42,416 bases of DNA from an uncultured Eubacteriales bacterium (GTDB lineage Bacteria; Bacillota; Clostridia; Oscillospirales; Oscillospiraceae), in assembly GCA_900319695.1 (NCBI GenBank), contig ONPN01000027.1:2896-45311 (forward strand), written 5' to 3'. Position 1 is the first letter of the stretch. Each line of letters opens with the position of its first letter. The position numbers and the translations under genes were made by a program. The notes below the pieces were generated by a model. It did not search any database and was not told the DNA's origin. It saw only the letters and a list, made by a program, of their open reading frames with translations. Of this stretch, positions 7,668 to 32,981 are shown piece after piece.

Positions 7668-7763
7668 ATACTGGTCTCCCATAAAACGGCTTAAAGCCGT
7701 TTTATAGCGCCAAAGGCGCGTCGGAGACCTATGAGACGTGTTTTGTGCCCAAGGGCACAAAAC
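7668..7763 (+). repeat. 96-bp multi-hairpin repeat, copy 1
   Basis: Runs from ATACTGGTCTCC to GGGCACAAAAC. GGTCTCC (7673-7679) pairs with GGAGACC further right, enclosing two hairpins: a 12-bp palindrome centred on CTTAAAG and GCGCC-AAA-GGCGC. Outside it is a third hairpin, GTGCCC-AA-GGGCAC with T/A extensions. Copy 2 at 19450-19545 has the same length and three base differences. This copy overlaps the 3' end of the receiver gene (7691-8164). Confidence 0.85.
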
Positions 7764-8164
7764 GCCCTCGCCGCTTCCACGTCCTCCCGAAAGGCGTTGG
7801 ATGTCAAAGCGACGATGGGGATTTCGGCCAGCTCCCGCCTATCCAGGGCGCGGATCGTCCGCGTGGCCTCATAGCCGTCCATGACCGGCATCTGAATGTC
7901 CATCAGGACCGCGTGATAGTACCCCGCCTCAGAGGCGGAAACCATGTCCACGGCGGCCTGACCGTTTTCCGCGGTCTCCACCGCAAAGCCCGCCTGCGTG
8001 AGAAGCAGGCGGGCGATTTCCATGTTGACGATGTTATCCTCGACCAGCAGCAGGCGCCTGCCTGAAAAAGCGGCCTCAGACCCGGACAGGCAGTGATCGG
8101 GAATTTTCCCGATGCGCTGCCTGTCAAGTTCCGCCGCCTTCTCTTCCGTGCGCCTGCCCGTCAC
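7691..8164 (-). CDS. Truncated response-regulator receiver protein
   Basis: A receiver (REC) domain that should accept a phosphoryl group from an HPt partner. Residues 37-134 carry the acidic pair in VEDN (42-43), the phosphoacceptor Asp89 in LMDIQMP and the T/S in ALTSNA. The usual last third, including the conserved Lys-Pro (compare AKP in the kinase's second receiver), is missing: residues from about 135 to 157 and the stop are encoded by the 96-bp repeat. The fold is probably not complete and signalling may be lost. The GTG start at 8164 overlaps the stop of the HPt gene (GTGA), so translation is coupled. The insertion reading is inferred from comparison of the two repeat copies. Confidence 0.8.
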   Translation of the reverse strand: MTGRRTEEKAAELDRQRIGKIPDHCLSGSEAAFSGRRLLLVEDNIVNMEIARLLLTQAGFAVETAENGQAAVDMVSASEAGYYHAVLMDIQMPVMDGYEATRTIRALDRRELAEIPIVALTSNAFREDVEAARAFCALGHKTRLIGLRRAFGAIKRL

Positions 8165-8502
8165 AGCGACAGCGCCTTTTCGCGCGCCGCCATGATCCGC
8201 TCCGCCAGCGCTTCGGCGCCGGGAACCGGCGCGTCCTTGCCGCGCAGCAGCTCCGTCAGCTCACAGACCGGCTCGTAAATCGGCGTGAGCGACACGTTGC
8301 CGATCGAACCCTTCAGCGCATGGGCGGCCGAAAAAGCCGCGCGGGCATCTCCGGCGTCCATGGCCTCTTTCAGCTTGTCAAAGTTTTTGTCCGCCAGCGC
8401 CATGCCGACCATCCTGAGATAGAAGGTCTCGTTTTTCAGGCATCTGGCCAGACCCTCGGCGGTGTTGGCGCCGTACTGCTTCAAGGCGTCCAATGTGATC
8501 AT
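8161..8502 (-). CDS. HPt (histidine phosphotransfer) domain protein
   Basis: A stand-alone 113-residue phosphotransfer protein. The phosphorylatable histidine is His61 in AAHALKGSIGNV, the classic HPt signature. It would shuttle phosphoryl groups between receivers, here between those of the hybrid kinase at 14253-16838, the REC domain in the permease fusion and the small receiver at 7691-8164. The start at 8502 overlaps the stop of the upstream fusion gene by ATGA, and its own stop overlaps the next start, so all three are translationally coupled. Confidence 0.9.
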   Translation of the reverse strand: MITLDALKQYGANTAEGLARCLKNETFYLRMVGMALADKNFDKLKEAMDAGDARAAFSAAHALKGSIGNVSLTPIYEPVCELTELLRGKDAPVPGAEALAERIMAAREKALSL

Positions 8503-11500
8503 GCTGTCCCTCCTTTTCCTTCTCTCACACCCAACACAATATGATTGGTATCGCTCTCCCGTGACTTGATCGTCTGCAGCGAATAGGGCGTCGGTACGCC
8601 GTTTTTCAGCTTCGTGAACGAGAGCTCAACAGTCTCCTGCTGACCGATCCAGCGCATGAGATTTGTCTTGCTCAGCGCTTTCCTGAGCGCTTCCACGTCG
8701 GCCCCGGCCACGTCCGCCAGCAGCTTTTCCCCGATGTCGCTGAAGAAATCAACACCGCCGGGACGGATTTCCAGCTCGCCGTTCTTGCCGGTGTGAAATT
8801 CCAGGTAGAAGTCTGTGACCATATCCACATAGAAGATGCTCTCAAAATCACTGGTCAGCGCCTTGGAGATGCTCATACAGGTTTTCTTGTCCGCCGGGGT
8901 GATCTCGCTCTTCGCGCTGGTGCGCTCGATCAGGAAGCGGTCAAAGGCCTGCGGCGGCACGGGCTTCGAGAAGTAGTAGCCCTGCACGTAATCGCAGCCC
9001 ATGGCCTTGAGCGTCAGATACTGCTCCTCGGTCTCCACGCCCTCGGCGACGACCGGGACGTGCAGATAGTCCGCAATGTCGATAATCAGCTCGATCATGC
9101 GCACATCCCGCGTCGCGCCGAAGGCGCTGCGGACAAAGCTCATATCCAGCTTGAGCGCGTCGATGGGCAAGTGGGACAGCATGCCCAGGGACGAGTAACC
9201 GGTGCCGAAGTCGTCCATCTCGATGCGGAAGCCGACGCCCATGCCGCGCAGCTCCTTGGCCGTGGAGATGACCTGATCGGAATCGCCGGTATAGGCGGAC
9301 TCCGTGATCTCCAGCACCAGATCCTCCGGGTTCAGGCGGCAGTCCTCCAGGATCTCCTTGAAAATCTGCTTGAGATTCGGCGTCAGCATGTCGATGCGGG
9401 AGACATTCACCGAGACCGGCACGGCAAAGCCGAGGCGGTCCTTCCAGTCGCGGATCTGCGCGGCGGCCCTGTGCCACACATAGCGGTCGAGCTCGAGGAT
9501 CAGGCCGTTGTCCTCCAGCAGGGGGATAAACACGCCGGGGCTGATCAGGCCGAGCGTCGGGTGATCCCAGCGCACCAGGGCCTCCGCGCTGGCCAGGATG
9601 GGCTTGTCGGGGCGGATATCATACTTGGGCTGGAAGTAGACCATGAAACGCCCGCTTTCCAGGGAAGGCTTAAAGTCCTCAAGCAGACGCTCCCTGTACA
9701 GCTCCGCCTTGTGCATCTCGGTGTCGTAAATGCCGACGGCCTTTACGAAGCCGCTCTTCACCGTGTTCGCGGCGATCTTCGCGTAGTCGAAGCGCCGCTC
9801 GATCTCGAGGGATTTGTCCACATTGGAATACACGCCCATGCGAAGCCGGACGCGGTTCTCGGACACATCCTCGTCCACAAGGCCCTCGGACGCCTTGTCG
9901 AGGATGCTCGCGTAGTCGTCCAGGTGGGGGCAGTAGATGAAGAAGGTATCCGCGGCGCGGCGGCAGCCTACGCCGCCGACCTCACGGGAGATCTTGCGGA
10001 TGCGCTTGCCGATGCGGGCGAGCACGCTGTCGCCGTACTGCTTGCCGTAGCGCTCGTTGAGCATGTGGAAATGGTTGACGTCAAGCACGATGGCGTCCAT
10101 CTCCATGTCGGTGTAGTGCTGGTCATAGATGCGGACGTAGCGGAGGAAGTAATCGAGGTTCAGCAGATTCGTCAGGCTGTCGCGCTCCGTGGACTGGATG
10201 ATGTTGCTCTTCTCGGACAGCTCGATGCAGCGATTGACGCGGGCCTGGATGATCTCAAAGGAGGGGTAGGGCTTGGGGATGAAGTCGATGGCGCCGATCT
10301 TGAGGCAGTCGACCTCCGCGCTCTGATCCGCGGTCATGACGATCACGGGGATACCGCGCAGCTCCTCCTCTTCCTTCATGACCTTCAGCACTTCCATGCC
10401 GCCCATTCTCGGCATCTGCAGATCCAGCAGGACAAGGGCCACTTCGTCCTTGTGCTTCTTGATCTGCTCCAGCGCCTCGGCGCCGTCGGAGGCGTACAGC
10501 ACCTCATACTCCTCCTGGAGCATGTTGCCGAGGATCATCTGGTTGATCTCCTCATCCTCCACAATGAGGATCATGCGCTTGAGATTCAGAATATCGCTGC
10601 TCTCATGTGTCGGCAGCACCTGTTTGGCCGCCACCTCGGCGTCCTCCCGCGTGATGGAGCCCATGCCTTTGAGGAGCGTCTTCTCCTCATACATCAGCGC
10701 GTCCGCGCGCTCAAACACGTCGTGGAAGCTGACGTCCTCTCCCGGCTTGTAATCCGAAAGGCCGCCGGAGATCACGACGTCATGCGTGCTGATGTTCTCC
10801 ACGGAGCGGTCATGGAGCGCGAGCACCAGCTCCTTGCGGATAAGATAGTCGCGCCCCGTCAGGATTACGACAAACTCGTCGCCGCCGGTGCGGTATACCG
10901 GGCTGTGCTGGAAAATATCACAGATCATGCGGCAGGCCTTGATGATATACTCGTCGCCCGCCTTGTGGCCGAGGGTGTCGTTGATGACCTTCAGGCCGTT
11001 TACGTCGCAGACGGCGACGGCAAAGGGATGGGCCGTCTTCTCCTCGATGGCGAGATTGTACTGCTTTTCGCTCTGAAGGAAGGCGTGCTTGCTCTTGACG
11101 CCGGTCATGGGATCGGTGAAGGCGGCGGTGCGGGCCTCGTCGCGCTCCTCGGCGGCCTTCTTCTCCCACTTGCGCGTGGTGGAATAGTTGATGAGCATGA
11201 CGGACAGGGACATCGCAAAGAGCCCCGCGATGACCAGCACGCTGGTGTTGTCCGCGTCGTGCAGGCGCTCGCGCCGGGCGTTGAGGAAATCGTCCTTGTC
11301 CTCGGCGGTCGATTCGCCTCTGGCCACGTCGTCTATGTAGACGGAGATCTCATCGACAATGTCGCTTTCCCTCGCCTCGTTCAGTCTCTCTGCCCAGGTC
11401 ATCGCCATCAGGACGATGAAGGCCAGCAGGGCGATCCAGACGATGACGGCTTTGCCGAACTTTCTGGCGTGATCCTTGCGGATGACGTTGTTGAAGAAGA

Positions 11501-12884
11501 TCAGACCGATGATCGACCAGACGGCGATGAGGACATAGGTCTCCGTCTCGATGGTGTAGTCGGAAAAGATGCTGGGGAACAGGAGGAAGAGCATGAAGGC
11601 GACCAGGATGAACAGGCAGATCCCGCTGATAAAGCGATCCTTTTTGCAGCCCTCCTTGCCGGAGGCTTTGAACACGGCGACAGAGACGAAGCCGTAGAGG
11701 ATCACCGCGCCGAAGGTAGTCGTGTCCACGATCCAGCCGATGGCGGTCCTGCCCAGGAAGGGGATGGGCAGGGACAGGAGGACGGCCAGGAGGATGGCGT
11801 TGGACGGGAGCTGCTTGTCGTTGAGCTGGGCGTACTGCTCGGGCAGGATGCCGTCCTGTGCCACGGCGTAGCACAGGCGGCTGACCGCGCGCAGCATCCC
11901 GATCAGGCTGGAGAGCACCAGCGACAGCAGGGACGCCATCAGGATATTGACGCCGGTCTGGCCGAGATAGTGGTTTGCGGCGTAAAAGGCGGGCAGCCCG
12001 GCGATCCCGTCAAACTCGTCCAGGCGGCGGATATAATCCAGCCAGCTTGTGCAGCCCTCCGGATAGACGGACACGCTCATCAGGATGATGAAGATGTACA
12101 GCGCCGTCGTGACGATCAGGGAGACGATGAGGATGCGGTAGAGATGGCTGTGCTTGAAGCGGTACTCCGCGGCCGAGTGGGACACGCTCTCAAAGCCGAT
12201 GAAGGCCCAGGGCGACAGGAAGGCGATGCGGACGACCTGCCCGAGCGCGCCCGCGTCCGGCACAAAGGCCGGCTCCATCGTCAGCCCGCTCTTGCGGAAG
12301 CCGAGCATCGCCGCCGCAAAGCAGACCGTGATGCCGACGGTGAACACCAGCACCAGAACCACCATGATACGGGCGGTCGCCTTCCTGCTCCTCATGCACA
12401 GAAGCCCGACCAGCGCGATGGCGGCCATGGTGACGATGGCTTCGACCAGATAGACCTCGTAGCCGAAGATCGTATAGAGATATCCGACCTTGAACGCGCC
12501 GCGCAGGAAGTAGCGCGCGAAGAGCGGGAGGCTGGTGGCGTTGGCCCAGAAGATGGAGATATAGGTCAGGAACATGAACCAGGCCACCAAAAAGGCGCGG
12601 TCATAGCCGAAGACATGTTTGATGTAGTTATACAGGCCGCCGGTTCCGGGGTAGCGGTTGGCCAGGAACTGATAGTGGTTCGTCACCATCAGCATCATGG
12701 CAAAGCCGATCAGCAGGCCGATGACCGAACCCATCGGGCCCGCCTGGGACAGGTAGGAGCCGCTTGTGACCACAAGGGAGCCCCAGCCGATGGCCGAGCC
12801 CACCGACAGGGCCCAGACGGCCAGCGGTGAAAGGTAGGGCTGCAGCGCGGAGGTCTGATTGGCAGCAGATGACGTCTCGTTCAT
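8499..12884 (-). CDS. Amino-acid-permease-like / GGDEF / REC / degenerate GGDEF / EAL fusion protein
   Basis: A 1461-residue signalling protein. Residues about 15-495 are an APC-superfamily permease-like membrane domain (TM1 region AIGWGSLV, then PGTGGLYNYIK). An extracytoplasmic segment (about 498-545) and one more helix (about 547-567) follow. Cytoplasmic domains are GGDEF (588-740, motif RTGGDEF at 665-671, intact), REC (770-885, Asp821 in LLDLQMP, KP present), a second GGDEF-like domain with CRRAADTFF in place of the motif, EAL (1075-1325, with EALVRW, ITESA, MDDFGTGYSSL, LKLD, AEGVET all present) and a C-terminal PAS-like region. It could make and break c-di-GMP in response to a solute and to phosphorelay input. 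The start at 12884 (MNETSS) has an AGAGGAGAGAG site. Whether it transports or only senses is unknown. Confidence 0.9.
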   Translation of the reverse strand: MNETSSAANQTSALQPYLSPLAVWALSVGSAIGWGSLVVTSGSYLSQAGPMGSVIGLLIGFAMMLMVTNHYQFLANRYPGTGGLYNYIKHVFGYDRAFLVAWFMFLTYISIFWANATSLPLFARYFLRGAFKVGYLYTIFGYEVYLVEAIVTMAAIALVGLLCMRSRKATARIMVVLVLVFTVGITVCFAAAMLGFRKSGLTMEPAFVPDAGALGQVVRIAFLSPWAFIGFESVSHSAAEYRFKHSHLYRILIVSLIVTTALYIFIILMSVSVYPEGCTSWLDYIRRLDEFDGIAGLPAFYAANHYLGQTGVNILMASLLSLVLSSLIGMLRAVSRLCYAVAQDGILPEQYAQLNDKQLPSNAILLAVLLSLPIPFLGRTAIGWIVDTTTFGAVILYGFVSVAVFKASGKEGCKKDRFISGICLFILVAFMLFLLFPSIFSDYTIETETYVLIAVWSIIGLIFFNNVIRKDHARKFGKAVIVWIALLAFIVLMAMTWAERLNEARESDIVDEISVYIDDVARGESTAEDKDDFLNARRERLHDADNTSVLVIAGLFAMSLSVMLINYSTTRKWEKKAAEERDEARTAAFTDPMTGVKSKHAFLQSEKQYNLAIEEKTAHPFAVAVCDVNGLKVINDTLGHKAGDEYIIKACRMICDIFQHSPVYRTGGDEFVVILTGRDYLIRKELVLALHDRSVENISTHDVVISGGLSDYKPGEDVSFHDVFERADALMYEEKTLLKGMGSITREDAEVAAKQVLPTHESSDILNLKRMILIVEDEEINQMILGNMLQEEYEVLYASDGAEALEQIKKHKDEVALVLLDLQMPRMGGMEVLKVMKEEEELRGIPVIVMTADQSAEVDCLKIGAIDFIPKPYPSFEIIQARVNRCIELSEKSNIIQSTERDSLTNLLNLDYFLRYVRIYDQHYTDMEMDAIVLDVNHFHMLNERYGKQYGDSVLARIGKRIRKISREVGGVGCRRAADTFFIYCPHLDDYASILDKASEGLVDEDVSENRVRLRMGVYSNVDKSLEIERRFDYAKIAANTVKSGFVKAVGIYDTEMHKAELYRERLLEDFKPSLESGRFMVYFQPKYDIRPDKPILASAEALVRWDHPTLGLISPGVFIPLLEDNGLILELDRYVWHRAAAQIRDWKDRLGFAVPVSVNVSRIDMLTPNLKQIFKEILEDCRLNPEDLVLEITESAYTGDSDQVISTAKELRGMGVGFRIEMDDFGTGYSSLGMLSHLPIDALKLDMSFVRSAFGATRDVRMIELIIDIADYLHVPVVAEGVETEEQYLTLKAMGCDYVQGYYFSKPVPPQAFDRFLIERTSAKSEITPADKKTCMSISKALTSDFESIFYVDMVTDFYLEFHTGKNGELEIRPGGVDFFSDIGEKLLADVAGADVEALRKALSKTNLMRWIGQQETVELSFTKLKNGVPTPYSLQTIKSRESDTNHIVLGVREGKGGTA

Positions 12885-12966: not shown

Positions 12967-14256
12967 TTATTCAAAGCTGCCGTACATGGCGGCGGCTTCA
13001 TCGATGCTGAGCTCGCCTTTCCCGACCTTGAACGCCGCGACCCGGAGCTGAACCGTGAGCGGGTCCCTGATGCCAAGCACCTCCGGGGACATGGTACGTT
13101 CCGCGGGTATCTGGGCGAAGGGCGCGAACAGCGCGTCAAAGGACAGATCCGTGGTGGGCGTCACGAGCCGCTTCACGGCGGCCATCTCATTGAGCTCCTC
13201 CTTTGAAATCAGAAAGCGCATAAATTCGTTTGTCATGTCGAGATTCTCGCAGTCCTTGTTCACGGAGAACTCCACGGAGGGACTGTCGATAAAATATCCC
13301 CCCTTATCGGTCAGCGGGATCGGAGAAAAGCTGTACGCAAAAGGCGCCTTGGCGAATGCTTCGGACTGGCTTTCCCGTTTCCGGGTCCCGGACACGGTGT
13401 CCCCGTAGCAGAGCATCATCGGCACATCGCCTTCAAAAAAACGCAGGATCACCTGACTATAGTTGTCCGAAATCTGATCACACGCGTCGATATCAATGCA
13501 GCCTTCCCGGATCAGCAGATCCACCGTTTCCAGAGCCGGGCGCATGTATTCTCCCGCCGCGGGGTCCAGCGCATTGGCAAGGGCCAGCGCTTCCGGCTTG
13601 TCGGCAAGCGTAGCTACAAACTGCGGATAGGCAATCGTGTTCATGAGGGAGCCGGACGCTTTGAGGCTGTAGCCCATCATGGGGCTGTCGTAACCTCTGC
13701 CGCGAAACTCCTTGCAGACGGCTACCAGCTCCGTCAGGGTGGTCGGGATGCTGAGACCTTCCTTCTTGAACAGATCGTTGTTCACCAGCATGCCGTAGGT
13801 TCTTGAGAAAACCGGCGCCATCGGTACATGGCCCTCTGCGTCATGACTGAGCAGACCGGGGCGGATGCAGTCCAGGTTCAGCTTGAGGGCCGGGTCCGAA
13901 AGATCCTCCATGTGGGCAAACACCGGGTCGTACAGCTCGTTTCCGAACATCCAGGTATGGGAGAAGAAGATGTTGGGCTTGTCCTTGCCCTCCAGCGCCG
14001 TGCCCAGGATGTTGTTATAGTCGTCCAGCTTCACATAGCTCAGCTGCACATTGGGATAATACACGTTGAATCTGTCAAATTCCGCCTCCAGCGCCTCAAA
14101 GTTGTCATAGCTTCCGGCCACCGTGATACTGCATCGCGTGTCTGTATCGAGAGCCGGCTTGAATCCGGCGGCGGTCCCCTCCGGCGCTTTTGCGCCGCAG
14201 GCCGCCAGCGACAAAACCTCGCAGATGATGCAGATGATGCAGAGCAGCTTTTTCAT
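12967..14256 (-). CDS. Extracellular solute-binding lipoprotein (SBP family 1)
   Basis: A 429-residue binding protein of the sugar/oligosaccharide ABC type. The signal peptide ends in a lipobox-like LAAC with Cys20 as the lipidation site. The mature part has the family pattern ([21 protein letters not shown], then NDLFKKEGL and WATS-like substrate loop regions). There are no ABC permease or ATPase genes beside it. It is sandwiched between a hybrid kinase (ATGA overlap at 14253-14256) and the permease-like signalling fusion, so it more probably presents ligand to a sensor than to a transporter. AAGGAGGAAAAGAGATC precedes ATG 14256. Confidence 0.9.
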
Positions 14257-16838
14257 GATCTCTTTTCCTCCTTGATTCTGCGGATCTCTTTGATGACGAG
14301 CTTGATGTCTACAGGCTTTGCGATATGGCCGTTCATGCCGGCGTTGAGACATTCGGTGACGTTCTCCGAGAAGGCGTCCGCCGTCATGGCGATGATCGGG
14401 ATGGAGGCCGCCCACGGCCTGTCCATCGCGCGGATGGCCCTGGTGGCGTCAAGTCCGTTCATCTCCGGCATCTGGATGTCCATAAAGATCAGATCATAGC
14501 TTCCGTCCGCGGCACCGGCCATTTTGTCCACGCAGATGCGGCCGTTCTCGGCGCGCTCCGACGTGATGCCGAACATATCGAGGATGGCGGAGATGATCTC
14601 CCAGTTGATGTCATTGTCCTCCGCGATGAGGATGTTCATGCCCAGCAAGTCTGAATAGTCATTCTCCGGCTCGACGGACTTGGTCCCGGTTCCGAGCAGC
14701 TCATTGATCCTGTCATAGAGCGTGGAGCGGAACAGCGGCTTGCTGACGAAGCCGTTTGCCCCGGCCTCCTTCGCGATGTCCTCGACATCCGACCCGTCGT
14801 ACGCGGAGATCAGCAGGACCGGCACGTCTAAACCCGCTTCCCCGCGTATACGGCGTATCGTCTCGACGCCGTCGATGCCCGGCATCTTCCAGTCCAGGAT
14901 CACAACGCGGTAATCCCGTCCGGCCTCATGCCGCCGCGCGATCATGCCGACCGCCTCCGGCCCGCTTCCCGCGCAGTCGGGCGTCACGCCGAGAGAGCGC
15001 AGGGTGTCGGCCGTGGTCTCCAGAAAGACCTCGTCGTCGTCGACGACCAGCACGTCCATCGGCTCGAGGGTCATATCCTCCCGCTGCCGCTCCGCGACGG
15101 GGAGATCCAGGACGACGGTGAAGGTCGTGCCTTTGCCCTGCTCGCTCTGGCAGTCGATGGAGCCGCCCATCAGATCGACCATCTGCTTTGTGATGGCAAG
15201 GCCGAGACCGGTGCCCTGAATGCTGTTGACCCGGCTGTCGGTCTGGCGGGAAAACGGCTGGTACATGTTTGCCATAAATTCCGGACTCATGCCGATGCCG
15301 GTGTCGGACACCTTGTAGCTCAGGCGCACACAGCCGCTCTTCGGGCTCTCCTCCTCGCGCAGGTCGACGCTGACGCGGCCGCCGGGCTCGGTGTATTTGA
15401 TGGCGTTGGAGAGGAGGTTGATATAGATCTGATTGAGCCGGAGCTGATCGGCGTAGAGGTATTCCTTCTCGATCCGGTTGATGCGGAAATTGAACTCAAT
15501 ATTCTTTTCCTTGACCATGGGCTGGGACAGATTCACGAGGTTTTCCACCGTCTCGACGATGGAGAAGGTCAGCGGGCTGAGGTTCAGCTTCCCGCTCTCG
15601 ACCTTGGAGATGTCCAGGATGTCGTTGATCAGTGTGAGCAGGTGGTTGCTGGCCAGCGTGATTTTCCGCAGGCTCTCCCCCACCGACTGCATATCGCCGA
15701 GATTCTTTTCCGCGATCGTCGTCAGGCCGATGATCGCGTTCATCGGCGTGCGGATGTCGTGGGACATGGTGGAGAGAAAATCGGTTTTGGCCTTGCTGGC
15801 CGACGCTGCCTCTCTCGCGACCGACACGAGCTTCTTGTTGAAGGACAGGATCACGGCCAGGTCAAACACGAACAGGATCAAAAGCCCCGCGGAGACGAAA
15901 CCGATCAGAATCCAGTTTTCGGTATTCACGTTCAGATCCTTGACCGGCATGAAGCTGAGCAGGGTCCATCCCTCTGTTGCCGTAACCGGGATATAGGCGA
16001 GGATGCACTCCTCACCGCGGGAGTTGAGCATGGTAAACGAGCCGGTTGAGGACGTGACCGTCTTGAAGAGCTCCTGCGCGGAGGCGGGATCAGTGGCGTT
16101 GTAGGAGCGGTAAAACTCGAAGAAGCTGGCATTTTTAAAAGAGTGGCCCTTGATGATATAATCGCCGTTTGCGTCGATCATGGACAGCTCCGCGTTTTCA
16201 AACGCCTCCTGCGGGAAGACCCATTTCTGCTCCAGCTCGGAGATGGGCAGCACGCGCAGCAGGATGGCCCGGCGGGGCTGATCGCTCTCCGGATCGTGGA
16301 GGGTGATGAAATTGCAGAAGGCCAGGGACTGTTCCCCGTTGACCGGGTTTGTGTAGGCGCGGGAGATGTTGATGGATTCCCCAATGTCGTGAATCCAGCT
16401 CACATCGTTCAAAAGCGCCATCCGCTCATACGAGACGGCGTAGTCGTCGGCGTTATCGCGCCTGGCCCTCGTGGACAGGCCCGTCAGCGTATCGCAGTAG
16501 ACGAGATGCGCCGAGGCGCTCGGCAGGACATGGGAGATGCGGATAAAGGAGACAGCCTCCTCAATGGTCATATCCTTGCTGTTGATATAGTGGGCCCATA
16601 CGTCACAGATGCGCTGTTCGCCCTCGAGATAATTCTCGGTGACATGCTCCATCGTGATGGTGGTATTTTCAAAATGCTCGATCTGCATCCGGGTGTTAAT
16701 TCTGTTTTCAAAGCCGGAATAGAGGACCACAAAGGTCAGCATCGCAAGCATGATGAATACATTGAAAAGAATGACCAAGGTTTTTTTCACAACGTATTCC
16801 GCCCTTCTGCTCATGAGACTTGCATAGCAAATCCCCAT
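14253..16838 (-). CDS. Hybrid sensor histidine kinase with dCache-like sensor and two receivers
   Basis: An 861-residue membrane kinase, first gene of the phosphorelay operon. TM1 is at about 18-41, an extracytoplasmic dCache-like sensor at 45-300 and TM2 at about 308-332. HisKA carries His360 ([12 protein letters not shown]). HATPase has the N box ([10 protein letters not shown]), DTGIGM and GTGLGL. REC1 (595-715) has Asp649 and REC2 (733-855) Asp787 with AKP. The order His-Asp-Asp fits a relay through the HPt encoded downstream. The start is uncertain: ATG 16838 lies within an inverted-repeat arm with only AGG close by, and ATG 16814 is an alternative with no good Shine-Dalgarno. The stop overlaps the start of the lipoprotein gene by ATGA. 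Confidence 0.9.
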
Positions 16839-19561: not shown

Positions 19562-19603
19562 AAAAGAATCCCTTTGAGCAAAAAAGCTCAGAGGGATTCT
19601 TTT
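19562..19603. terminator. Bidirectional terminator between convergent genes
   Basis: AAAAGAATCCCTTTGAGC (19562-19579) pairs with 19586-19603 around an A6/T6 loop with one G-U pair. The minus-strand stem ends in a run of T, suiting the EAL gene stop at 19603. It also faces the PAP2 transcript. Confidence 0.85.
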
Positions 19604-22521
19604 CACGTCCGGCGCAGGAAGCGCGCTTCCAGCTCCTCCGCAGGCAGCGGACGGGAGAAAGAATAGCCCTGCGCAAAAGCGCAGCCCTTTTTCTTCAGGA
19701 GCAGCATCTGTCCCTCTGTTTCCACGCCCACGGCGATAACGGGGATCTTCAGATAGTCCGCGGCTTCCAGAATCAGATCGACATGCCGCGAAGCCTTTTC
19801 ATCCTGCTCCATCTCGGAGATCAGACTCCTGTCCAGCTTCAATCCGTCGACGGCAATGGACGAGAGTACGCTGAGCGTGCCGCTCTCTGGGCCGACCCTG
19901 TCTATCAGAATCTCATAGCCCGCTCTTCGCAGGCTTTCAACAATGTCGAAGATCTGGAACCTGTTTTCCGCGCACACCGATTCCCTGATCTCCAGCTTCA
20001 GATCGCCGTATGAAAGCCCGTTTTCCCTGAGCGCCTCGCCCAGGGCCCGTTTCAGCGCAGGATCAAACAGGTCCTGACTCGACAGGTTGACGGACGCCGG
20101 AAGCGTTACGCCGTATTTCTTCTTCCAGGACACAATCTGCCGGACCGTCTCCTTCCAGACATACTGATCCACTGTGCCGATCTCTCCGCTGCGCTCAAGC
20201 AGGGGCAGGAAATCGCCCGGGTCGATGACGCCCAATTCCGGGTGACGCCAGCGTACCAGCGCCTCTACGCCGACGAGCTCCGGCGTCTCGCCCCGGATAT
20301 CCAGCGTCGGCTGATAGTATACCTCAAACTCCATACCTTCCACGGCTCGCTCAAGATCACGCAGAAGGCGCTTGCCATAGGCCTCTCTCTCCAGGAGCTT
20401 CGCGTCGACGACGATCATGCGCTCCTCGCCCATATGGCGCGCCTTGCGGCAGGCCGTACGCGCCAGCTCAAGCATGCGCGCGGGTTTGGTATCCGCGCGC
20501 CACGGCGCGACCCCCATTTTGAGCCGCAGACTCATATCCGGTGAGAGGATGTCCAGGCTCCCCTGCAGACTGCGATACAGCCTGTCGCAGTCCTCCACCG
20601 GCGGGCAAAAAACTGCAAAGCGGTTTGTATCCGTTCTGCCTGCTATCCCGCCATGCTGTTTGACATAGGTCTGCAGTCCCGTTCCCAGCGTGCGCAGGAT
20701 ATCGTCCTCAAAGTGCTGTCCGCACATCGTCCCGACAGCCGAAAGCTGATCGACACTCAGCACGACAGCGTCCATGGGCCGGTCCGGCTTTTCGCGGTAC
20801 ATCCGTTCGGCATAGGCGTAAAAGTATTCCCTGTTATACAGTCCCGTGCGCTTGTCGATCTCCGTTTTAGAGATCAGACGCTGGCTTTCACCGGCTCTTT
20901 TTTCGGCGCGCATCCCGCGCAGCAGCAGGAGCGCGAACGCGCCTCCGACCAAGACCAGCGCGCCCAGCAAAGCAATGAGGTTTCTTCTGGACAGATCGGT
21001 GACGGTGGTTTTCGCATCCTCCGCATAATACCTTGTCAGCGCGGCGTTGATGGTTGAAGCCGGCACGATCCCGGTGACTTTGCTCAGAATGGAATACAGG
21101 AGCGTATCCTGCCGGTTCACCGCCAGGCAATCATCCATTTCCACGCCGGTGGAGATGGTCGTCAGATGATACTTTCCGCAGATCGCGGCGATGTTGTTGA
21201 AGCGATAGCTGCTGATGAGCAGACAGTCCGCCTGCTCGTCCGCGATGGCGCGCAGGCAGCTCGGCGTATCCTCAAAATAGATCGTCCGCCATTGCGGGAA
21301 ATGATCCAGCAGGAACATCTCATAGTTGGGATTTCCCACGTTGACAGCAACCGCCACCCGTTCCTTCTTTGTAAAGGAGTCCACATCCGTCTCGCGGATC
21401 ACCGCGGCCATGTCCGTCCGCATCAGCGCGGGGGTTATGAAAACGCCCTGAATCTCCCCGTCATAGTCGGTGAGGTTTATGGGAAATACGCAGTCCACCT
21501 CTCCGGCCTTCAGCGCCTCCATCGCAGCCTCGGCAGTGGGAAAGGCAACAGGCTCAAATTCCAGATGGGCGTTTTCGAGGCAGTCCGAGGCGGCGTACAG
21601 AAAGTCCTTCAGTGCGCCGGTCAGTTCCCCTGTTTTTTGATCTTTGGCGCAGAACGCCAGATAATTGTCCCGATATCCAACGCGAATCGGTCCGTGAGCC
21701 GCGAGCCAGGCGCTCTCCTCGGCGCTGAGGTAGTGGCTGATCTTGGTGGTCTCCAGGTATTCCGAATAAAGCGTCCGATTATACAGCGGATTTTCATCCA
21801 GGATCCTGGTCATCGCGTTGTTCAGCTCGCCGAGCAGCTCAGGGCGCGATTTGCTGACCGCGAAGAAGAAATCGGAGGAGCCGATCTTGCAGGCCGGCAC
21901 GGCGTCCCCGGCCTTGTGCAGACCGTCCAGCGTCGCGTACAGGTCGATGCCGCCGTGTTTGAGCCGGGAAACGTTATCCTCCTCCGAGCCGGTCATCTCC
22001 ACGATCTCCGCCCGGACGCCGTTTGCCTCCGCCCACTCCCGGAAGAAGCCGATCTGAACGCTGCCCTTGTTCGCGCCGACCTTTTTGCCGTTAAAGGTGG
22101 AAAAGTCCTCCGGTGTGATCTCCTTATTGTCGGGCGCGGTGAAGAGATAGTAATCCTCCGTCCCCATCGGCTGCGCGGAGAACAGCATTTTTTCCGCGCG
22201 CTCATCCGTATAGGAGACGTCGCTCATCAGGTCGATTCTGCCGTCCTCAAGCATTTGCAGCAGCTCCGGCCAGCTCCCGGTCACATATTCGTAGGTCCAT
22301 CCGGTATAGGCGGCGATCTTCTGCTGATAATCATAGGCGTAGCCGGAGCGCCGCCCCAGCTCATCCGTGGTATTGAAGGGCGATTCAAACCACCCGACGC
22401 GGACGATTGTTTCGGACTCCCGCGCGTGCGCGCCGATCGGCAGCGCAAGGGCAGCCAGAACGGCGAGCGCGAGCATGAGCGCGCCGCGCGCTGCGTAACG
22501 AATCCGCTTTGTTGATCTCAT
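19603..22521 (-). CDS. Tandem solute-binding-domain sensor with degenerate GGDEF and degenerate EAL
   Basis: A 972-residue membrane sensor. A signal segment is followed by two SBP_bac_3-like amino-acid-binding domains (about 38-265 and 270-505), a helix at about 517-537, a GGDEF-like domain with RTDTNRF in place of RGGDEF, and an EAL domain (about 715-965). EALVRW is kept, but the metal-binding DDFGTG region reads IDRVGPESG and AEGVET reads AVGVET, so phosphodiesterase activity is unlikely. It probably binds nucleotide or acts through its partner. The start at 22521 (MRSTKRI) has GGGAGGCGG upstream. It is the last gene of a three-gene operon and the same length as its paralogue at 24189-27107. 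Confidence 0.9.
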   Translation of the reverse strand: MRSTKRIRYAARGALMLALAVLAALALPIGAHARESETIVRVGWFESPFNTTDELGRRSGYAYDYQQKIAAYTGWTYEYVTGSWPELLQMLEDGRIDLMSDVSYTDERAEKMLFSAQPMGTEDYYLFTAPDNKEITPEDFSTFNGKKVGANKGSVQIGFFREWAEANGVRAEIVEMTGSEEDNVSRLKHGGIDLYATLDGLHKAGDAVPACKIGSSDFFFAVSKSRPELLGELNNAMTRILDENPLYNRTLYSEYLETTKISHYLSAEESAWLAAHGPIRVGYRDNYLAFCAKDQKTGELTGALKDFLYAASDCLENAHLEFEPVAFPTAEAAMEALKAGEVDCVFPINLTDYDGEIQGVFITPALMRTDMAAVIRETDVDSFTKKERVAVAVNVGNPNYEMFLLDHFPQWRTIYFEDTPSCLRAIADEQADCLLISSYRFNNIAAICGKYHLTTISTGVEMDDCLAVNRQDTLLYSILSKVTGIVPASTINAALTRYYAEDAKTTVTDLSRRNLIALLGALVLVGGAFALLLLRGMRAEKRAGESQRLISKTEIDKRTGLYNREYFYAYAERMYREKPDRPMDAVVLSVDQLSAVGTMCGQHFEDDILRTLGTGLQTYVKQHGGIAGRTDTNRFAVFCPPVEDCDRLYRSLQGSLDILSPDMSLRLKMGVAPWRADTKPARMLELARTACRKARHMGEERMIVVDAKLLEREAYGKRLLRDLERAVEGMEFEVYYQPTLDIRGETPELVGVEALVRWRHPELGVIDPGDFLPLLERSGEIGTVDQYVWKETVRQIVSWKKKYGVTLPASVNLSSQDLFDPALKRALGEALRENGLSYGDLKLEIRESVCAENRFQIFDIVESLRRAGYEILIDRVGPESGTLSVLSSIAVDGLKLDRSLISEMEQDEKASRHVDLILEAADYLKIPVIAVGVETEGQMLLLKKKGCAFAQGYSFSRPLPAEELEARFLRRT

Positions 22522-22547
22522 CTTACCGCCTCCCGCTCCGGCACTGT

Positions 22548-24167
22548 CTACCTCTCGCCTTTCCGACTGCGTTTGTTTTCGTACATGCAGGAATCCGCGC
22601 GCCGGATAACGTCGTTCACAGAACGGTCGCTCTGCGGATCGTAGACCGCGACGCCCATCGCAATATGTACCTGCTCCCATTTGTTCTTGTTTACGGCGCA
22701 GCTCTCCGCCATTTCCCTGTTGAACTGCCGCGCGAGCGCCTCTCTGTTCCGATAATCGTCGTTTTGCAGGATCACGGAAAATTCGTCCCCGCCGACACGG
22801 AACACGGGGCTGTGCTGATAGATGCGGCAGATGAGGCGGCTGGCTGTTTTCAGATAGATATCGCCTTTTTCGTGACCGTAGATGTCGTTGATCTGCTTGA
22901 GGTCGTCACAGTCAAACATGCCGATTGCGAAGGATATGAGGCCGTTTGCGTCGTTCATGCGCGTCTGAAGCTGCTCGATATAGCTGGAATACGCGCCCTT
23001 GTTGCGCACGGAGGTCAGCGAATCGACATACGCGCGCTTGCTCAGGTCGGAGATATGATCCTTCATATGGGCGGCAAGATGCTTGAAAGTGCTGGTCAGT
23101 CTGCCGATCTCGTCGTCTTTGTCATACTCCAGCGCAACGTCATAATTGCCTCTGTCCACCTGTTCCGCGGCGTCGGTCAGCTCTTCAAGCGGCCTTGTGA
23201 TGCGCCGCGTATAATACATGGTGAAAACACTCAGGGCAACCAGCACTTCAAGGGACACGATCAGGATGTTCATGATCAGCTTCTGCCAGTCGCCCTCTGT
23301 CTCTGTGATCGGAACCGTGACGTTCAGGCGCATCCCGTTCGACAGCGGCAGCCAGGCGCCGACTTTTTCCACGCCTTCATAATTGTATTGGAAAAAGGTA
23401 TTTTTCTGGATCAGTCCCTCCGGTACCGCGGGCATTGTCTCCTCGGTAAGTTGGGTGACGTCGATCAGGGGATGGTAAAAGAGATTGCCCTCCTCATCGC
23501 TCAGAAACGCATAGCCGTTATTGAACAGGCGTATGCTCTCCACCTGCTCGGCCATGGTGGAGTAGTCCAGCTCGATCCCGACCACCCCGACAAACCTGCC
23601 CCGCCAATAGATCGGGACATTATAGGAGATCACACGCACGTCCAGGTTGTCCGTGATGTACGGGGGAATCCAGATCGCTTCGCCCATATGCTTCGGGACA
23701 GTGAACCACACCAGGCGGGAGGTATCCGCCGTGTCATAGAGCGTGATATCCGTCACCTCATGCTCGACAAAGCCCTCCCCGTCGAGGTCTGTATACCAAA
23801 AGCCCGCAACCGTCTCCGAGACGGCCGGATCAATGCGGTAATAGTAGGTCAGCACCCCGTTTGTCTTGGCCGCGGTTTCTTCAAAAAAGGGCTTCACCCG
23901 TTCGACATGCCGCGCAAGCCGACCGCTCTCCACGCCGTCCAGGTCTGCTTCCACATGGGTTGCCAGCTTTCTGACGGACTTCTGGACGCTGTTGAAGTAA
24001 TAGTCGAGATTTCTCTCCCCTGTCTCGCACAGCAGCAGGAGGAGCTGGTCGGATTTTCGGTGCTCCGTCCTCCGAATAAACACCACGCTGAGAACCGTAA
24101 TGCTGGTCACCGCGACGACGATGGCAAAGACGGTCAGCAAGGTCATTTTTGTACGTAACGAGCGCAT
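22548..24167 (-). CDS. dCache-HAMP-GGDEF diguanylate cyclase
   Basis: A 539-residue protein likely to make c-di-GMP from GTP. TM1 is at about 8-30. The extracytoplasmic region 38-280 looks like a double Cache sensor (YYYRIDPAVSETVAGFWYTDL, then VVGIELDYSTM). TM2 is at about 290-312, HAMP at 313-365 with the RRITRPLEELT entry, and GGDEF at 375-535 with RVGGDEF intact. No RxxD inhibitory site is seen at the expected position. The start is ATG 24167 with AGAGGTG upstream. It lies 21 nt after the upstream paralogue and 26 nt before the next, so it is co-transcribed with two EAL proteins. Confidence 0.92.
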   Translation of the reverse strand: MRSLRTKMTLLTVFAIVVAVTSITVLSVVFIRRTEHRKSDQLLLLLCETGERNLDYYFNSVQKSVRKLATHVEADLDGVESGRLARHVERVKPFFEETAAKTNGVLTYYYRIDPAVSETVAGFWYTDLDGEGFVEHEVTDITLYDTADTSRLVWFTVPKHMGEAIWIPPYITDNLDVRVISYNVPIYWRGRFVGVVGIELDYSTMAEQVESIRLFNNGYAFLSDEEGNLFYHPLIDVTQLTEETMPAVPEGLIQKNTFFQYNYEGVEKVGAWLPLSNGMRLNVTVPITETEGDWQKLIMNILIVSLEVLVALSVFTMYYTRRITRPLEELTDAAEQVDRGNYDVALEYDKDDEIGRLTSTFKHLAAHMKDHISDLSKRAYVDSLTSVRNKGAYSSYIEQLQTRMNDANGLISFAIGMFDCDDLKQINDIYGHEKGDIYLKTASRLICRIYQHSPVFRVGGDEFSVILQNDDYRNREALARQFNREMAESCAVNKNKWEQVHIAMGVAVYDPQSDRSVNDVIRRADSCMYENKRSRKGER

Positions 24168-24188
24168 TCGCGCATCACCTCTGTTCTA

Positions 24189-27107
24189 TCACGCTTTGAT
24201 CCCGGAATTGTTGAGCAGCTCCGTTTCAAACTCGGCGGGGTGCAGCGGACGGGAAAAATAGTATCCCTGTACAAGCGTACAGCCCAGATCCTTCAGGATC
24301 TGAAGCTGGGTCTCCGTCTCCACGCCTTCGGCAATGACCGGGATTTTCAGGTTCCTTGCTATGCCGAGGATCAGCGCCACCAGCTGGACGTCCCGCTCGT
24401 TGTTCTCCATGTTCCGGATAAAGGTTCTGTCCATCTTCAGCACGTCAACCGGCATCGCGGACAGCATGTTCAGCGAGGAATACCCGGTGCCGAAGTCGTC
24501 CATCTCCACCGTGTAGCCTTTATGGCGCAGGCCCTCCACGACCCTTATCACCTGTTCCGCGTTTTCCGTATAGGCTGACTCCGTCAGCTCCAGCTTCAGC
24601 GTGTCATACTCCAGTCCATTCTGTCGAATGATGTCGTCCAGGTTCTTTTCCAGGGTCGGGTCAAACACATCCACACGCGACAGATTGACCGAGATGGGGA
24701 TCGTCCTCCCGTAGCGAACCTGCCAGCGGGCAATCTGCCGGGCCGCCTCGGACCAGACATACTTGTCCACCTCGCTGATCTTCCCGCAGCGCTCAAAGAG
24801 CGGGACAAAGATATCCGGCGTGATCATGCCCAGCTCCGGATGCCGCCAGCGCACCAGCGCCTCCGCGCTCACAAGTCTCGGCGGCTCGACCCCGACGTCA
24901 AACTTGGGCTGGTAGTAAACCTCAAGCTCGTAATTGTCCAGGGCACGGCGCAGATCGTTAATCAGGCGCTGGTCAAGCAGCTCGCGCTCACGCACCTTCT
25001 CATCAAAGACGATCAGATGCTCCTTGAAGTGCCCGCGCGCCTGCGTACACGCGATCCTCGCCCTGTCGAAAAGCTGGACGGGCTCGATACCGGGCTGGCA
25101 CAGCGCGACCCCCATGCGCAGGAACACGCTGGTGTTCGGCGAGACGGCGTCCACCTTTCTCTGCAGGCGGTCAAAAACCGCCTGATAGTTTTCGGCATGA
25201 CGGCAGTAGCAGTCAAAGCGATCCGCCCCGAACCGGCCCGCGATGCCGCCGGCTTCCTCGGCAATCGTGTGAAGCTCGCTCCCGAGAACGCGGAGAATCC
25301 GATCGCCGAACTCTCTCCCGTTGAGCGCGTTGACAGAATGGAACTGTTCGATATTCAGCACGACGGCATCCATCGGCACATCGGGGTATTCATGAAACAG
25401 ACGGTTTGCGTACTGGAAGAAATAGTCGCGGTTGTACAGGCCGCTCAGGCTGTCGATCTCCGTTGCGGAAATGAGCTGCTTTGCCCTCTTCTCCGCTCTC
25501 ACGCTTCTCAGGAGCAGAAGAAGGATCGCCAGCACCACAACGGTGATGCCGGTCATGACGCCGGTCAGGTTGTCCTCTATGAAATCGCCCAGGCTGAGCT
25601 TTGCGTCCTCCGTGATATAGTAGGACAGCGCCGAGCTGAAGGTGGAGGTCGGAACCAGGCTGACCATCTTTGACAGGATGGAATACAGCTCCTTTTCGCC
25701 TTTGCCCACCGTCAGGCAGTAATCCATCTCCAGACCGGTGGGGAGAGTTGCCAGATGATATTTTTCACATTGTCTGAATATGTTGTTATAGCGATAACTG
25801 CTGATCAGGATGCAGTCCGCCACCCGCTCGGACACAGCCTTCAGGCAGTCCGCGGTGCTGGTATAGTAGACCTTTTGCCAGTTCGGGTAATGGTCGAGCA
25901 GGAAAGCATCGTAATTCGGGTTTCCCTCGTTTACGGCTACGATCACATGCTCTTTGTTGGCGAAGGTGTTCAGATCCGACTGCCGCACCACCACATAGAT
26001 GTCCGTGCTTATCAGGGGCGGCGTCATGACGATGCCGAGCTTTTCCCCGTCGTAACCGCTGAGGTTTGCGGGGAAGACGCAGTCCACCTCCCCGTTTTTC
26101 ATGGCGCTGACGGCGTCCTCCATGGTGGGATAGGCTTTGGCCGAAAAGGAGAGCTGCGCGTTTTCCAGGCAGGAAGCGGCTCTGTCCAGATAATCCTTCA
26201 TGGCGCCGGTCAGCTCCCCGCTTGTCTGATCCTTGGCGCAGAAGGCGAGATAATTGTCCTGATAGCCAACCCGGATCGTCCCATGGGCCGAGAGCCAGTT
26301 CAGCTCATCCGCCGTGAGAAAGGCGTTGGCGCCGGCTGTTTTCATGTATTGTTCAAACATCTGCTGATTAAAGAAGCGGTTCTCGTTCTGGATGCGGCTC
26401 ATGGCGCTGTTGAGATCCTTCAGCAGATCGGGCCGGGTTTTACTGACGGCGAAGAAGAAATCAGAGGCGCCGACCTTGACCACCGGCACCGCCCGCCTCG
26501 GATCCGTAAAGGAGTCGACGGTGACATATGCGTCCAGCTCACCGGTTTCCAGCATGTTCAGCGATCTGTCCTCGGAGTTTGTCAGCTCGATCAGCTCCGC
26601 CTCGATGCCGTTTCTCTTTGCCCATTCACGATAGAAGTCCGCCTGAATGCTGTCCCTGTTCACGCCGATCCGTTTCCCGTTCAGCGTGGAAATGTCTGCC
26701 GAGCTGATCTTTCGGCTGTCGGGAGCCGTGAACAGATAGTATTCCTCCGCCCCCATGGGAAGCTCCGGGAACAGCATAAGCTCTGCGCGCTCCGCGGTAT
26801 AGGAGACGTCGCTCATCAGGTCGATGTCCCCGTTGATGAGCATACGCAGAAGCTCAGACCAGCTTCCGGTCACATATTCGTACGACCAGCCGGTATAGGC
26901 CGCAATCTTGAGCTGATACTCGTAGGCGTAGCCGGAGCGCCGTCCGAACGAGTCCATGGTGTTATAGGAGGAATCATACCAGCCGACGCGCACGACTTTC
27001 TGATCCGGCTCCTGCGCATGGGCTGCAAAGGGCATAGCCATGGCGATAGCCGTAATCACGCATAGCAGGAGCGCCAAAAGCCGCCTGGAGCTCCGTTCTT
27101 CTCTCAT
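24189..27107 (-). CDS. Tandem solute-binding-domain sensor with degenerate GGDEF and intact EAL
   Basis: A 972-residue membrane c-di-GMP phosphodiesterase candidate. The signal peptide ends near AHA (about 31). Two SBP_bac_3-like domains follow (35-260 and 265-503), then a helix at 515-535. The GGDEF domain has GADRF at 627-631, so no cyclase activity is expected. The EAL domain (715-965) has all key groups: EALVRW from 749, SVNLSR, LTESA, MDDFGTGYSSL, LKMD and AEGVET. The start at 27107 (MREERSS) has AAGGGGGCGG about 9 nt upstream; the listed TTG two codons earlier is not needed. First gene of the operon with the dCache cyclase and the degenerate paralogue. Confidence 0.92.
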   Translation of the reverse strand: MREERSSRRLLALLLCVITAIAMAMPFAAHAQEPDQKVVRVGWYDSSYNTMDSFGRRSGYAYEYQLKIAAYTGWSYEYVTGSWSELLRMLINGDIDLMSDVSYTAERAELMLFPELPMGAEEYYLFTAPDSRKISSADISTLNGKRIGVNRDSIQADFYREWAKRNGIEAELIELTNSEDRSLNMLETGELDAYVTVDSFTDPRRAVPVVKVGASDFFFAVSKTRPDLLKDLNSAMSRIQNENRFFNQQMFEQYMKTAGANAFLTADELNWLSAHGTIRVGYQDNYLAFCAKDQTSGELTGAMKDYLDRAASCLENAQLSFSAKAYPTMEDAVSAMKNGEVDCVFPANLSGYDGEKLGIVMTPPLISTDIYVVVRQSDLNTFANKEHVIVAVNEGNPNYDAFLLDHYPNWQKVYYTSTADCLKAVSERVADCILISSYRYNNIFRQCEKYHLATLPTGLEMDYCLTVGKGEKELYSILSKMVSLVPTSTFSSALSYYITEDAKLSLGDFIEDNLTGVMTGITVVVLAILLLLLRSVRAEKRAKQLISATEIDSLSGLYNRDYFFQYANRLFHEYPDVPMDAVVLNIEQFHSVNALNGREFGDRILRVLGSELHTIAEEAGGIAGRFGADRFDCYCRHAENYQAVFDRLQRKVDAVSPNTSVFLRMGVALCQPGIEPVQLFDRARIACTQARGHFKEHLIVFDEKVRERELLDQRLINDLRRALDNYELEVYYQPKFDVGVEPPRLVSAEALVRWRHPELGMITPDIFVPLFERCGKISEVDKYVWSEAARQIARWQVRYGRTIPISVNLSRVDVFDPTLEKNLDDIIRQNGLEYDTLKLELTESAYTENAEQVIRVVEGLRHKGYTVEMDDFGTGYSSLNMLSAMPVDVLKMDRTFIRNMENNERDVQLVALILGIARNLKIPVIAEGVETETQLQILKDLGCTLVQGYYFSRPLHPAEFETELLNNSGIKA

Positions 27108-27215
27108 GTTCAATTCCGCCCCCTTTTGACATGGCTGACAGTGCGTCGTTTGCTCTGGCCGAACGCCGAGAAATCAATGGCAATGATGAACAGTCCCATG
27201 CGGGTATTTACAATT

Positions 27216-27244
27216 ATTGTACCATGCCTTTCGCTGAAAGACAA
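27216..27244 (-). promoter_or_regulatory. Sigma-A promoter of the 19603-27107 operon
   Basis: -35 TTGTCT (plus-strand 27239-27244), 17-nt spacer, -10 TACAAT (27216-27221) preceded by TGG. The start codon at 27107 is about 100 nt downstream. The 27108-27304 gap shows no strong terminator for the upstream gene. Confidence 0.72.
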
Positions 27245-27304
27245 CAAAAACTCCCAGGAAATTGCAAGCCCCTTCCATGCTCTCCGAGGCTCCGGCTTTT
27301 TTTC

Positions 27305-32500: not shown

Positions 32501-32556
32501 ATGATCCAGACGCAAAGAGACTTGAGCGATACGCCGTCGCGCTTATGAGCAAACAT
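29506..32556 (-). CDS. Two-TM sensor with GGDEF, cysteine-rich PAS-like, GGDQF and EAL domains
   Basis: A 1016-residue protein with both cyclase and phosphodiesterase modules. TM1 (about 14-33) and TM2 (about 221-240) enclose a helical extracytoplasmic region. GGDEF1 (about 290-440) is intact with RYGGDEF. A PAS-like domain (about 465-570) carries five cysteines (505, 515, 518, 524, 528), a pattern seen in other Clostridia GGDEF proteins. A second GGDEF domain reads GGDQF (672-676). EAL (775-1010) has EALVRW from 794, SVNISA, ITETA, IDDFGKGYSSL, LKID and TEGVET. The start at 32556 (MFAHKRD) follows AGGATGTAGGAAG; upstream in-frame residues precede the Shine-Dalgarno. Operon with the EAL gene at 27305-29509. 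Confidence 0.92.
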   Translation of the reverse strand: MFAHKRDGVSLKSLCVWIIMAALILSGLIFNATFRLTSTFENLTEATESQIALGKASHELMDASDYLTEKVQRFTVNGDLHFLEDYFKEAFETNRRESAIAKLSANPNTTAALEKLQQALDESVSLMNREYYAMRLVVEAKGYTDYPGQLRDVTLDERDRELSPQEKMRRATEMVLDDEYYAQKERIRADMRNSLDALEALTRNAESVALSRLRSELSSVRVIITVQILGTLFFIWMTIRLGINPLLRAVERIRFDRPIEESGANEFRYLARTYNRLTVQLQEENERLKDVSQTDALTGIRNRMALRNDYESYSGHEVTVMLLDLDSFKKINDTYGHEEGDRVLSETGRLLSDAFQKEHCYRYGGDEFLVIAPDMSETEFLRKLDSVMGHRPSLEKDGGFSTVGYSVGIVHAVLNEKRDLRNLFSEADQKMYRLKRDKARLESVRGEKSQSVEAGFKAAEYTAEEMKALLDEVSDKYDLVRVVDPIECRILEFGSDGQISRKERCYGIWNADQKCVNCSSALACRTGCHHEKTEFFIDQLYHIQSEPVRLKLKDGGAYDAVVEMVSIEKDSEDAHAANDRAAENKNHRAAQYQAQHDSLTKTLNTGAFAELSREAIAKNPKMPWIMITSNIMNFRLVNTLFGSQKGNEIIVRNAAKLQHIAAASDGLCGRLGGDQFALLLPKGMYREALLTEITQSLREEYSSGSYTFVIHFGVYEVNDAALPISVMCDRANMALRTIREDHKKVIAYFNDDMLRRSLLEQEIISSFDKAIRENEFQMYLQPLVFDNGQIVGAEALVRWRRPDGSVRSPAEFIETLERAGLIHQLDCFMWECAVRQLAAWKGTDKEKLTISVNISAKDFYSLDIDRVLTELTERYGVPCSRLKLEITETALLEDPANSDEVITRLRRKGFLVEIDDFGKGYSSLGLLKDIHADVLKIDMSLLHETENRQRSRIILASIINMADSLGMDVVTEGVETETQLRSLLEMGCHHFQGFYFSRPVTVEEFEARYGKGGGPT

Positions 32557-32589
32557 TCTTCCTACATCCTCTTTTCTCTTAATATATAT

Positions 32590-32934: not shown

Positions 32935-32981
32935 AATAATACTGCTGCGGTTATTATATCTCCGAAGTAATAAACAAAATA

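Follow-up and report, generated by a model that had tools for sequence, protein, structure and literature searches.

An APC-type carrier domain joined to c-di-GMP modules: a candidate transporter-fold receptor family in rumen and gut Clostridia

The closest known idea to the protein described here is that of CbrA and CrbS, the SLC5-STAC histidine kinases in which a carrier of the LeuT fold precedes the signalling domains on the same polypeptide (available parts of PMC7096432 and PMC13022988). For CbrA, whether the carrier serves as a receptor and whether signalling needs transport are presented as unsettled in the same portions of these papers, and the term GGDEF occurs zero times in the available text of PMC13022988. 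The 5TMR receptors (PF07694) likewise combine a transporter-related fold with modular kinase, GGDEF, EAL and PAS outputs (PMC11109136, available part), but their membrane part is a six-helix ECF S-component fold, whereas that of the present family is APC/LeuT. The SLC7-like APC carriers GkApcT, ApcT and the CAT-LAT group have in common with our protein the fold and the backbone substrate site of TM1 and TM6; they carry no signalling outputs, and our protein lacks the equivalents of GkApcT Lys191 and Glu115. Response regulators of the REC-GGDEF-EAL type resemble its C-terminal half, which here is fused behind an APC-GGDEF part. Where CbrA and CrbS consist of an SLC5 carrier, a STAC linker and a kinase output, the chain reported here consists of an APC carrier, a two-helix hairpin and GGDEF/EAL outputs. 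With a predicted carrier fold and signalling domains in a single polypeptide, it falls within the transceptor kind exemplified by CbrA. No published description of an APC domain fused to GGDEF or EAL was found in the titles and abstract openings among the literature matches listed, which cover subscription journals thinly, and the chain is a variant of CbrA-like transceptors that is apparently not yet described.

The gene lies in a stretch of 42,416 nucleotides from an uncultured Eubacteriales bacterium of the Oscillospiraceae (assembly GCA_900319695.1, contig ONPN01000027.1, positions 2,896 to 45,311), which we call the window and in whose own positions all coordinates below are given. It occupies 8499-12884 on the reverse strand as a single open frame of 1461 aa, running from an ATG at 12884, with a GAGGAG stretch upstream of it, to a stop at 8499. 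A preliminary description had read the chain as APC, GGDEF, REC, degenerate GGDEF, EAL and PAS-like parts in this order; Pfam matches and structural models agree with it throughout and add a membrane hairpin of two helices (residues 479-589). All on the reverse strand, the parts are an APC carrier-fold domain (AA_permease_2; 11484-12833, residues about 18-467; Pfam, AF2 model and Foldseek), whose Pfam match covers residues 18-438 with E 4e-30 for the whole protein and whose TM1 GWG motif is residues 33-35, while its TM6 motif PWAFIGFE ends at E232; the extra two-helix stretch (11118-11450; AF2 model, hydrophobic stretches and alignment); a first GGDEF domain (10677-11123, residues 588-736 as the best Pfam stretch) with an intact motif at 667-671; a receiver (Response_reg; 10245-10571, residues 772-880, E 1e-22) with D821 and K871; a second GGDEF (9756-10184, converted from contig coordinates), called degenerate because its motif reads AADTF; an EAL domain (8961-9677, residues 1070-1308, E 8e-62) with intact catalytic motifs; and a C-terminal PAS-like domain (8502-8912, residues 1325-1461; model and weak matches).

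By sequence family and modelled fold, the protein is a member of the APC carriers. The model of residues 1-760, built on 55 relatives, has a pLDDT of 86, and its APC part matches y+LAT1 (best PDB E 5e-13), AdiC, GkApcT and ApcT in Foldseek, with target TM-scores of 0.71-0.79 for the AdiC, GkApcT and ApcT chains among the matches listed. Pfam assigned only AA_permease families to the carrier part and no kinase domain at E 0.01, so that the SLC5 carrier and kinase domains of an SLC5-STAC histidine kinase are both missing. Between the carrier and the first GGDEF the AF2 model places two long helices (479-521 and 530-589). The C-terminus of APC carriers is cytoplasmic, and taking this to hold here, we infer that the helices form TM13, an outside loop and TM14, with a coiled coil leading into the GGDEF domain. 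Inspection of the sequence by eye found no RxxD ahead of that domain, the motif which we take to define its inhibition site (I-site). At the other end, the last 137 residues (1325-1461) match no Pfam family; a model from 48 homologous domains (pLDDT 71, pTM 0.65) arranges its elements as PAS domains do, and PAS, LOV and Cache domains make up most of its best PDB matches (best E 1.8e-3, none at or below 0.001). The same PAS-like domain recurs in many loci, at the ends of other long forms and within neighbouring kinases and cyclases.

The preliminary description had allowed that an assembly error might have joined two genes near residue 500. This is excluded: the junction recurs in dozens of other contigs, and third-position GC is 0.85-0.92 along the chain apart from its final 110 or so codons (0.69). 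Neither is the gene a one-off: it has relatives in many assemblies and is one of several output forms within a large family of modular build. A query of 600 residues (APC plus hairpin) matched 38 of 300 genomes of the same family (E up to 1e-10), about 20 of the 300 having the match inside an open frame longer than 700 aa, one with an internal stop. At the level of the order, 21 of 295 genomes matched (E up to 1e-30), 10 of them in frames longer than 680 aa, and at that of the phylum 16 of 398, just 4 of them in frames longer than 700 aa; all three counts take in the window's own genome, and the order and family sets share some genomes. On these counts the fused forms cluster around the window's family. 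Scanning contigs gave at least 586 relatives, and the titles of the best 80 of these refer mostly to gut or rumen samples or to RUG bins, which are presumably of rumen origin. Among the relatives are Lachnospiraceae bacterium AC2029, with an APC-GGDEF-REC-GGDEF-EAL chain (L133), and Ruminococcus sp. YE71, with an HD-GYP output (L145); by their names we take both to be isolates. The window protein shares 1323 of 1461 residues with its homologue in locus L073 and 727 of 1296 aligned residues with that of AC2029. Some locus titles name taxa outside Clostridia (Treponema, Sutterella, Chloroflexi, Actinobacteria families, Alphaproteobacteria); these loci are binned metagenomes that may be mis-binned, and a spread across many phyla is not claimed. 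The window's genome, 79% complete, holds three APC fusions, namely the gene described here and two hybrid kinases (L053, L054).

What the APC module is joined to was surveyed in 100 loci (20 plus the best 80 of the at least 586 relatives) and the window, using domain models seeded with window sequences. Among 114 ORFs with an APC match, the window's architecture, APC-GGDEF-REC-GGDEF-EAL with a degenerate second GGDEF (hereafter the long form), occurs in 45, of which 34 have the PAS-like tail, 11 do not and 2 are cut by contig ends. APC-GGDEF (the short form) accounts for 42 ORFs and a further 2 with a partial GGDEF match, and APC-kinase-REC(-REC) for 16, one of them cut. Rarer are APC-PAS-PAS-GGDEF (2), a cut APC-PAS-PAS (1) and an HD-GYP output (3: L123, L130, L145), the last resting on Pfam HD_5 in L123 and L145 and on a sequence motif in all three; 3 ORFs, that of L120 and two of L136, are truncated or fragments, which together with the cut APC-PAS-PAS makes 4 incomplete ORFs. 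These output frequencies are biased, the set consisting of the most similar relatives, some of them near-identical (L055/L113, L058/L117). Three more distant members likewise resemble APC-kinases: L153 (HisKA, HATPase, REC) and, both without a HisKA match, L155 (HATPase) and L154 (HATPase just below the Pfam cut-off). Domain matches and models together show the APC domain and its hairpin as a module naturally paired with GGDEF, GGDEF-REC-GGDEF-EAL, HD-GYP or hybrid-kinase outputs. Two loci, L055 (3336-15490) and L113 (4476-16712), hold three such receptors in tandem, with kinase, long-form and GGDEF outputs, in a row comprising a separate REC-GGDEF-EAL gene, HPt, APC-kinase, long form and APC-GGDEF.

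Whether this module could still bind an amino acid was judged by HMMER alignment of 111 fused modules to GkApcT. The equivalents of G44 (G35 here) and Y268 (Y263) are kept in all 111 and that of A232 (A227) in 110; the position of F231 (W226) is Trp, and that of the TM6 acid D237 (E232) is Glu, in every module. The backbone amino-acid site of TM1 and TM6 is thus kept at the sequence level, within a carrier fold that the model reproduces. The Thr43 position is Trp in 109 of 111 and could reshape the pocket. In GkApcT side-chain size is limited by Met321 (PMC5803215, available part); the corresponding position is Met in 42 and Asn in 59 of the 111 modules, and since it varies, ligands may differ among modules. 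None of the 111 has an acid at the Glu115 position or a Lys at the Lys191 position, two having a Lys five positions earlier. In the available part of PMC5803215, Lys191 variants of GkApcT still bind L-Ala, with transport lost in the Ala and Arg variants and partly retained in Asn; the Glu115Gln variant binds as well, counterflow being the one form of transport that it shows, and in mammalian CATs Ser takes the place of Glu115.

The loss of the TM5 lysine was considered as proof of a receptor and rejected, because standalone relatives are without it too. All 8 standalone relatives compared (retained from a 14-member set that included shadow ORFs; 6 were used in the tree below) lack both the Lys191 and the Glu115 equivalents, and since the CATs have Ser there as well, their absence does not by itself make a non-transporter. 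Only two positions separate fused from standalone sequences near-cleanly, that is, in at least 95% of the former against at least 7 of 8 of the latter: W113 (Trp in 108 of 111 fused modules, Pro or Ala and never Trp in the 8 standalone relatives) and E232 (Glu in 111 of 111, against Asp in 7 and Gly in 1 of the 8). A working transporter, acting as an uncoupled facilitator or exchanger with signalling as a consequence of transport, a model put forward for bifunctional CbrA-like proteins, would agree with the kept backbone site and Tyr263, with a TM6 acid retained as Glu, with the exchangers AdiC and LATs among the top fold matches and with the transport of L-histidine by CbrA (available parts of PMC7096432 and PMC13022988). 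The missing residues at Lys191 and Glu115 and the two near-clean differences speak against it, and we consider it rather unlikely. The preliminary description had left the choice between flux and binding open; with Lys191 and Glu115 equivalents absent, and by analogy with the GkApcT variants, binding seems likelier, with coupled transport weak or absent. The carrier part would probably bind without coupled transport, though leak or exchange may occur.

A further reading holds that the APC part is a mere membrane anchor or oligomer platform, with control coming from the REC and PAS-like parts. The kinase of CbrA functions without its SLC5 domain (PMC7096432 and PMC13022988, in their available parts), and outputs change on the APC module along the tree; on the other hand, site residues are nearly invariant in the 111 fused modules, and the 42 APC-GGDEF ORFs have no other modelled input domain, and this reading appears improbable.

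The first GGDEF, the receiver and the EAL domain retain their key residues. In 44 of the 45 long forms (one was dropped for an ambiguous letter), D627, N635, D636, D669, E670 and F671 of the first GGDEF are kept without exception and G667 is Arg in one, so that the domain has the motif and metal residues of a putative diguanylate cyclase. The receiver has D821, the expected phospho-acceptor, and K871 in 44 of 44 and T851 in 43, with Ser in one, the Asp, Thr/Ser and Lys set of a predicted response regulator. The second GGDEF is without the motif Glu in all 44. In the EAL domain E1101 is kept in 44 of 44, and E1195, D1224, D1225, K1245, E1281, E1284 and Q1301 in the 42 that can be read, two being cut by contig ends, which is the catalytic set of a predicted phosphodiesterase. 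In other proteins, GTP binding to a degenerate GGDEF can stimulate the EAL attached to it. The flow might also be reversed, with the GGDEF and EAL parts reading GTP or c-di-GMP and regulating amino-acid transport; the degenerate GGDEF belongs to a type that might bind but not catalyse, but the catalytic residues of the first GGDEF and EAL are kept and the same module also carries kinase and HD-GYP outputs, and we regard this direction as very improbable.

The neighbouring genes, all on the reverse strand, suggest a source of phosphate. A hybrid histidine kinase (14253-16838; HisKA-HATPase-REC-REC by Pfam), whose N-terminal part sits by eye between two hydrophobic stretches, overlaps by 4 bases a solute-binding lipoprotein gene (12967-14256; SBP_bac_1/SBP_bac_8 by Pfam, lipobox by eye), and a gap of 82 bases precedes the APC gene. 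No ABC transporter gene was found among the scanned neighbours of the lipoprotein. The end of the APC gene overlaps by 4 bases an HPt phosphotransfer protein gene (8161-8502), which in turn overlaps by 4 bases that of a single-domain receiver (7691-8164; both by Pfam). The last 25 or so residues of this receiver differ from those of its L073 and L074 relatives and are without the usual KP region, and the end of the gene may be interrupted or wrongly assembled. L073 and L074, the nearest relatives among the matches listed, also have the kinase, binding protein, HPt and REC. Among loci where one flank or both reach 3.5 kb or more, a kinase orthologue was present within 6 kb for 9 of 36 long forms and for none of 39 short forms (p 0.0007, kinship ignored). 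The order seen in the window is shared by only three of the 9 (L073, L074, L077); the orthologue is on the other strand in L136, L137 and L147 and downstream in L091, L112 and L127. An HPt gene within 1 kb on the same strand was found for 3 of 23 long forms, and any kinase likewise for 3 of 23. The linkage suits the receiver as target of the kinase, but it is patchy, and adding the HPt and kinase counts brought our confidence in the preferred explanation, a transporter-fold receptor driving a c-di-GMP switch, down slightly, from fairly probable to a little better than even.

Elsewhere in the window, a dense run of further c-di-GMP genes (19603-35219) encodes two proteins with two SBP_bac_3 stretches and GGDEF-EAL, one with a single partial SBP_bac_3 and GGDEF-EAL, a dCache-HAMP-GGDEF protein, a GGDEF-GGDEF-EAL protein with no domain assigned to its N-terminus, and an HD_5 protein; the 2.8 Mb genome gave 46 GGDEF matches above the cut-off (48 listed). 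A frame of 617 aa at 2208-4061 matches no Pfam family at E 0.01 and has an antisense frame of 584 aa opposite.

How the chain arose was addressed with two quick trees, both assessed by SH-aLRT only. In the tree of 117 APC domains, the 111 fused modules split from 6 standalone carriers with support of 100; most kinase forms lie near the base between standalone and fused, and the GGDEF, HD-GYP and long forms farther from it. Together, the six output labels need 15 changes on this tree and the long form alone 9, of which 6 are forced by well-supported branches, while 38 of the 113 inner branches are weak. Repeated independent fusions, which this tree alone would suggest, were set aside: in the REC-GGDEF-EAL tree, 42 of 45 fused rows (3 were left out because a letter was ambiguous or the EAL was cut) group with L120 against 16 separate proteins, across a branch with support of 100. 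This half was therefore probably joined once, from a response regulator that next to some short members is still a gene of its own. The APC-GGDEF stop is directly followed by a REC-GGDEF-EAL gene, by eye with a plausible start and a stretch resembling a ribosome-binding site, in L101, L117 (identical to L058), L124 and L152; in L141 such a gene lies just upstream of the short form, and in L098 and L102 it is upstream with HPt in between. The short form ends (for example KSMGAKVR) at the point where the long form (KGMGSITRED) continues into REC. An adjacent separate REC-EAL gene was found for 5 of 29 short and 0 of 23 long forms, a difference that is not significant (p 0.059). The adjoining APC-GGDEF and REC-GGDEF-EAL genes are likely the arrangement before fusion, and we favour, without taking it as proved, a single fusion of the two with later losses or exchange of receptors. 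In L120 (9908-14220) the long-form gene is present as two overlapping frames, one of 584 aa with the APC part and a later one with REC and EAL, and is either a broken gene or an assembly error.

Taken as a whole, the sequence and models lead us to favour, by a narrow measure, a receptor of the transceptor type with a transporter fold, coupled to a switch for c-di-GMP. The kept TM1/TM6 site would bind an amino acid or a comparable small amine; the resulting change in the helix bundle would move TM13, TM14 and the coiled coil, and the shift would set the pairing of the first GGDEF and hence the rate of c-di-GMP synthesis. The REC-GGDEF-EAL half, presumably a former separate response regulator, would receive phosphate at D821 from the neighbouring hybrid kinase via HPt, which would set EAL activity, the degenerate GGDEF perhaps assisting allosterically and the PAS-like end perhaps supplying a further input. 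The fusion would thereby unite a nutrient-set synthase and a phosphorelay-set hydrolase as one local unit. A sensor for both making and breaking c-di-GMP, gated by phosphorylation, had been anticipated in the preliminary description, and it fits the conserved first GGDEF, REC and EAL domains and the relay neighbours. Among the observations that weigh against this explanation are that L-histidine left CbrA kinase activities unchanged in vitro (available parts of PMC7096432 and PMC13022988) and that 27 of the 36 long forms have no kinase orthologue nearby.

The wider claim is more tentative, and we put it a little short of even: that in a family of rumen and gut Clostridia an APC carrier has become a ligand-gated, possibly non-transporting receptor mounted on each main class of c-di-GMP enzyme (GGDEF, EAL, HD-GYP) and on hybrid kinases, so that the occupancy of a LeuT-fold site would directly set c-di-GMP. 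If the APC module senses, the family would pair a single receptor with four types of output enzyme, the standalone carriers serving as outgroups, and would make it testable whether a LeuT-fold transporter domain can act as a receptor and whether signalling depends on transport. The sequences and models suggest that rumen and gut Clostridia have put a transporter fold to new use as a receptor for nutrients; if this is true, c-di-GMP control in these bacteria would gain a class of nutrient inputs.
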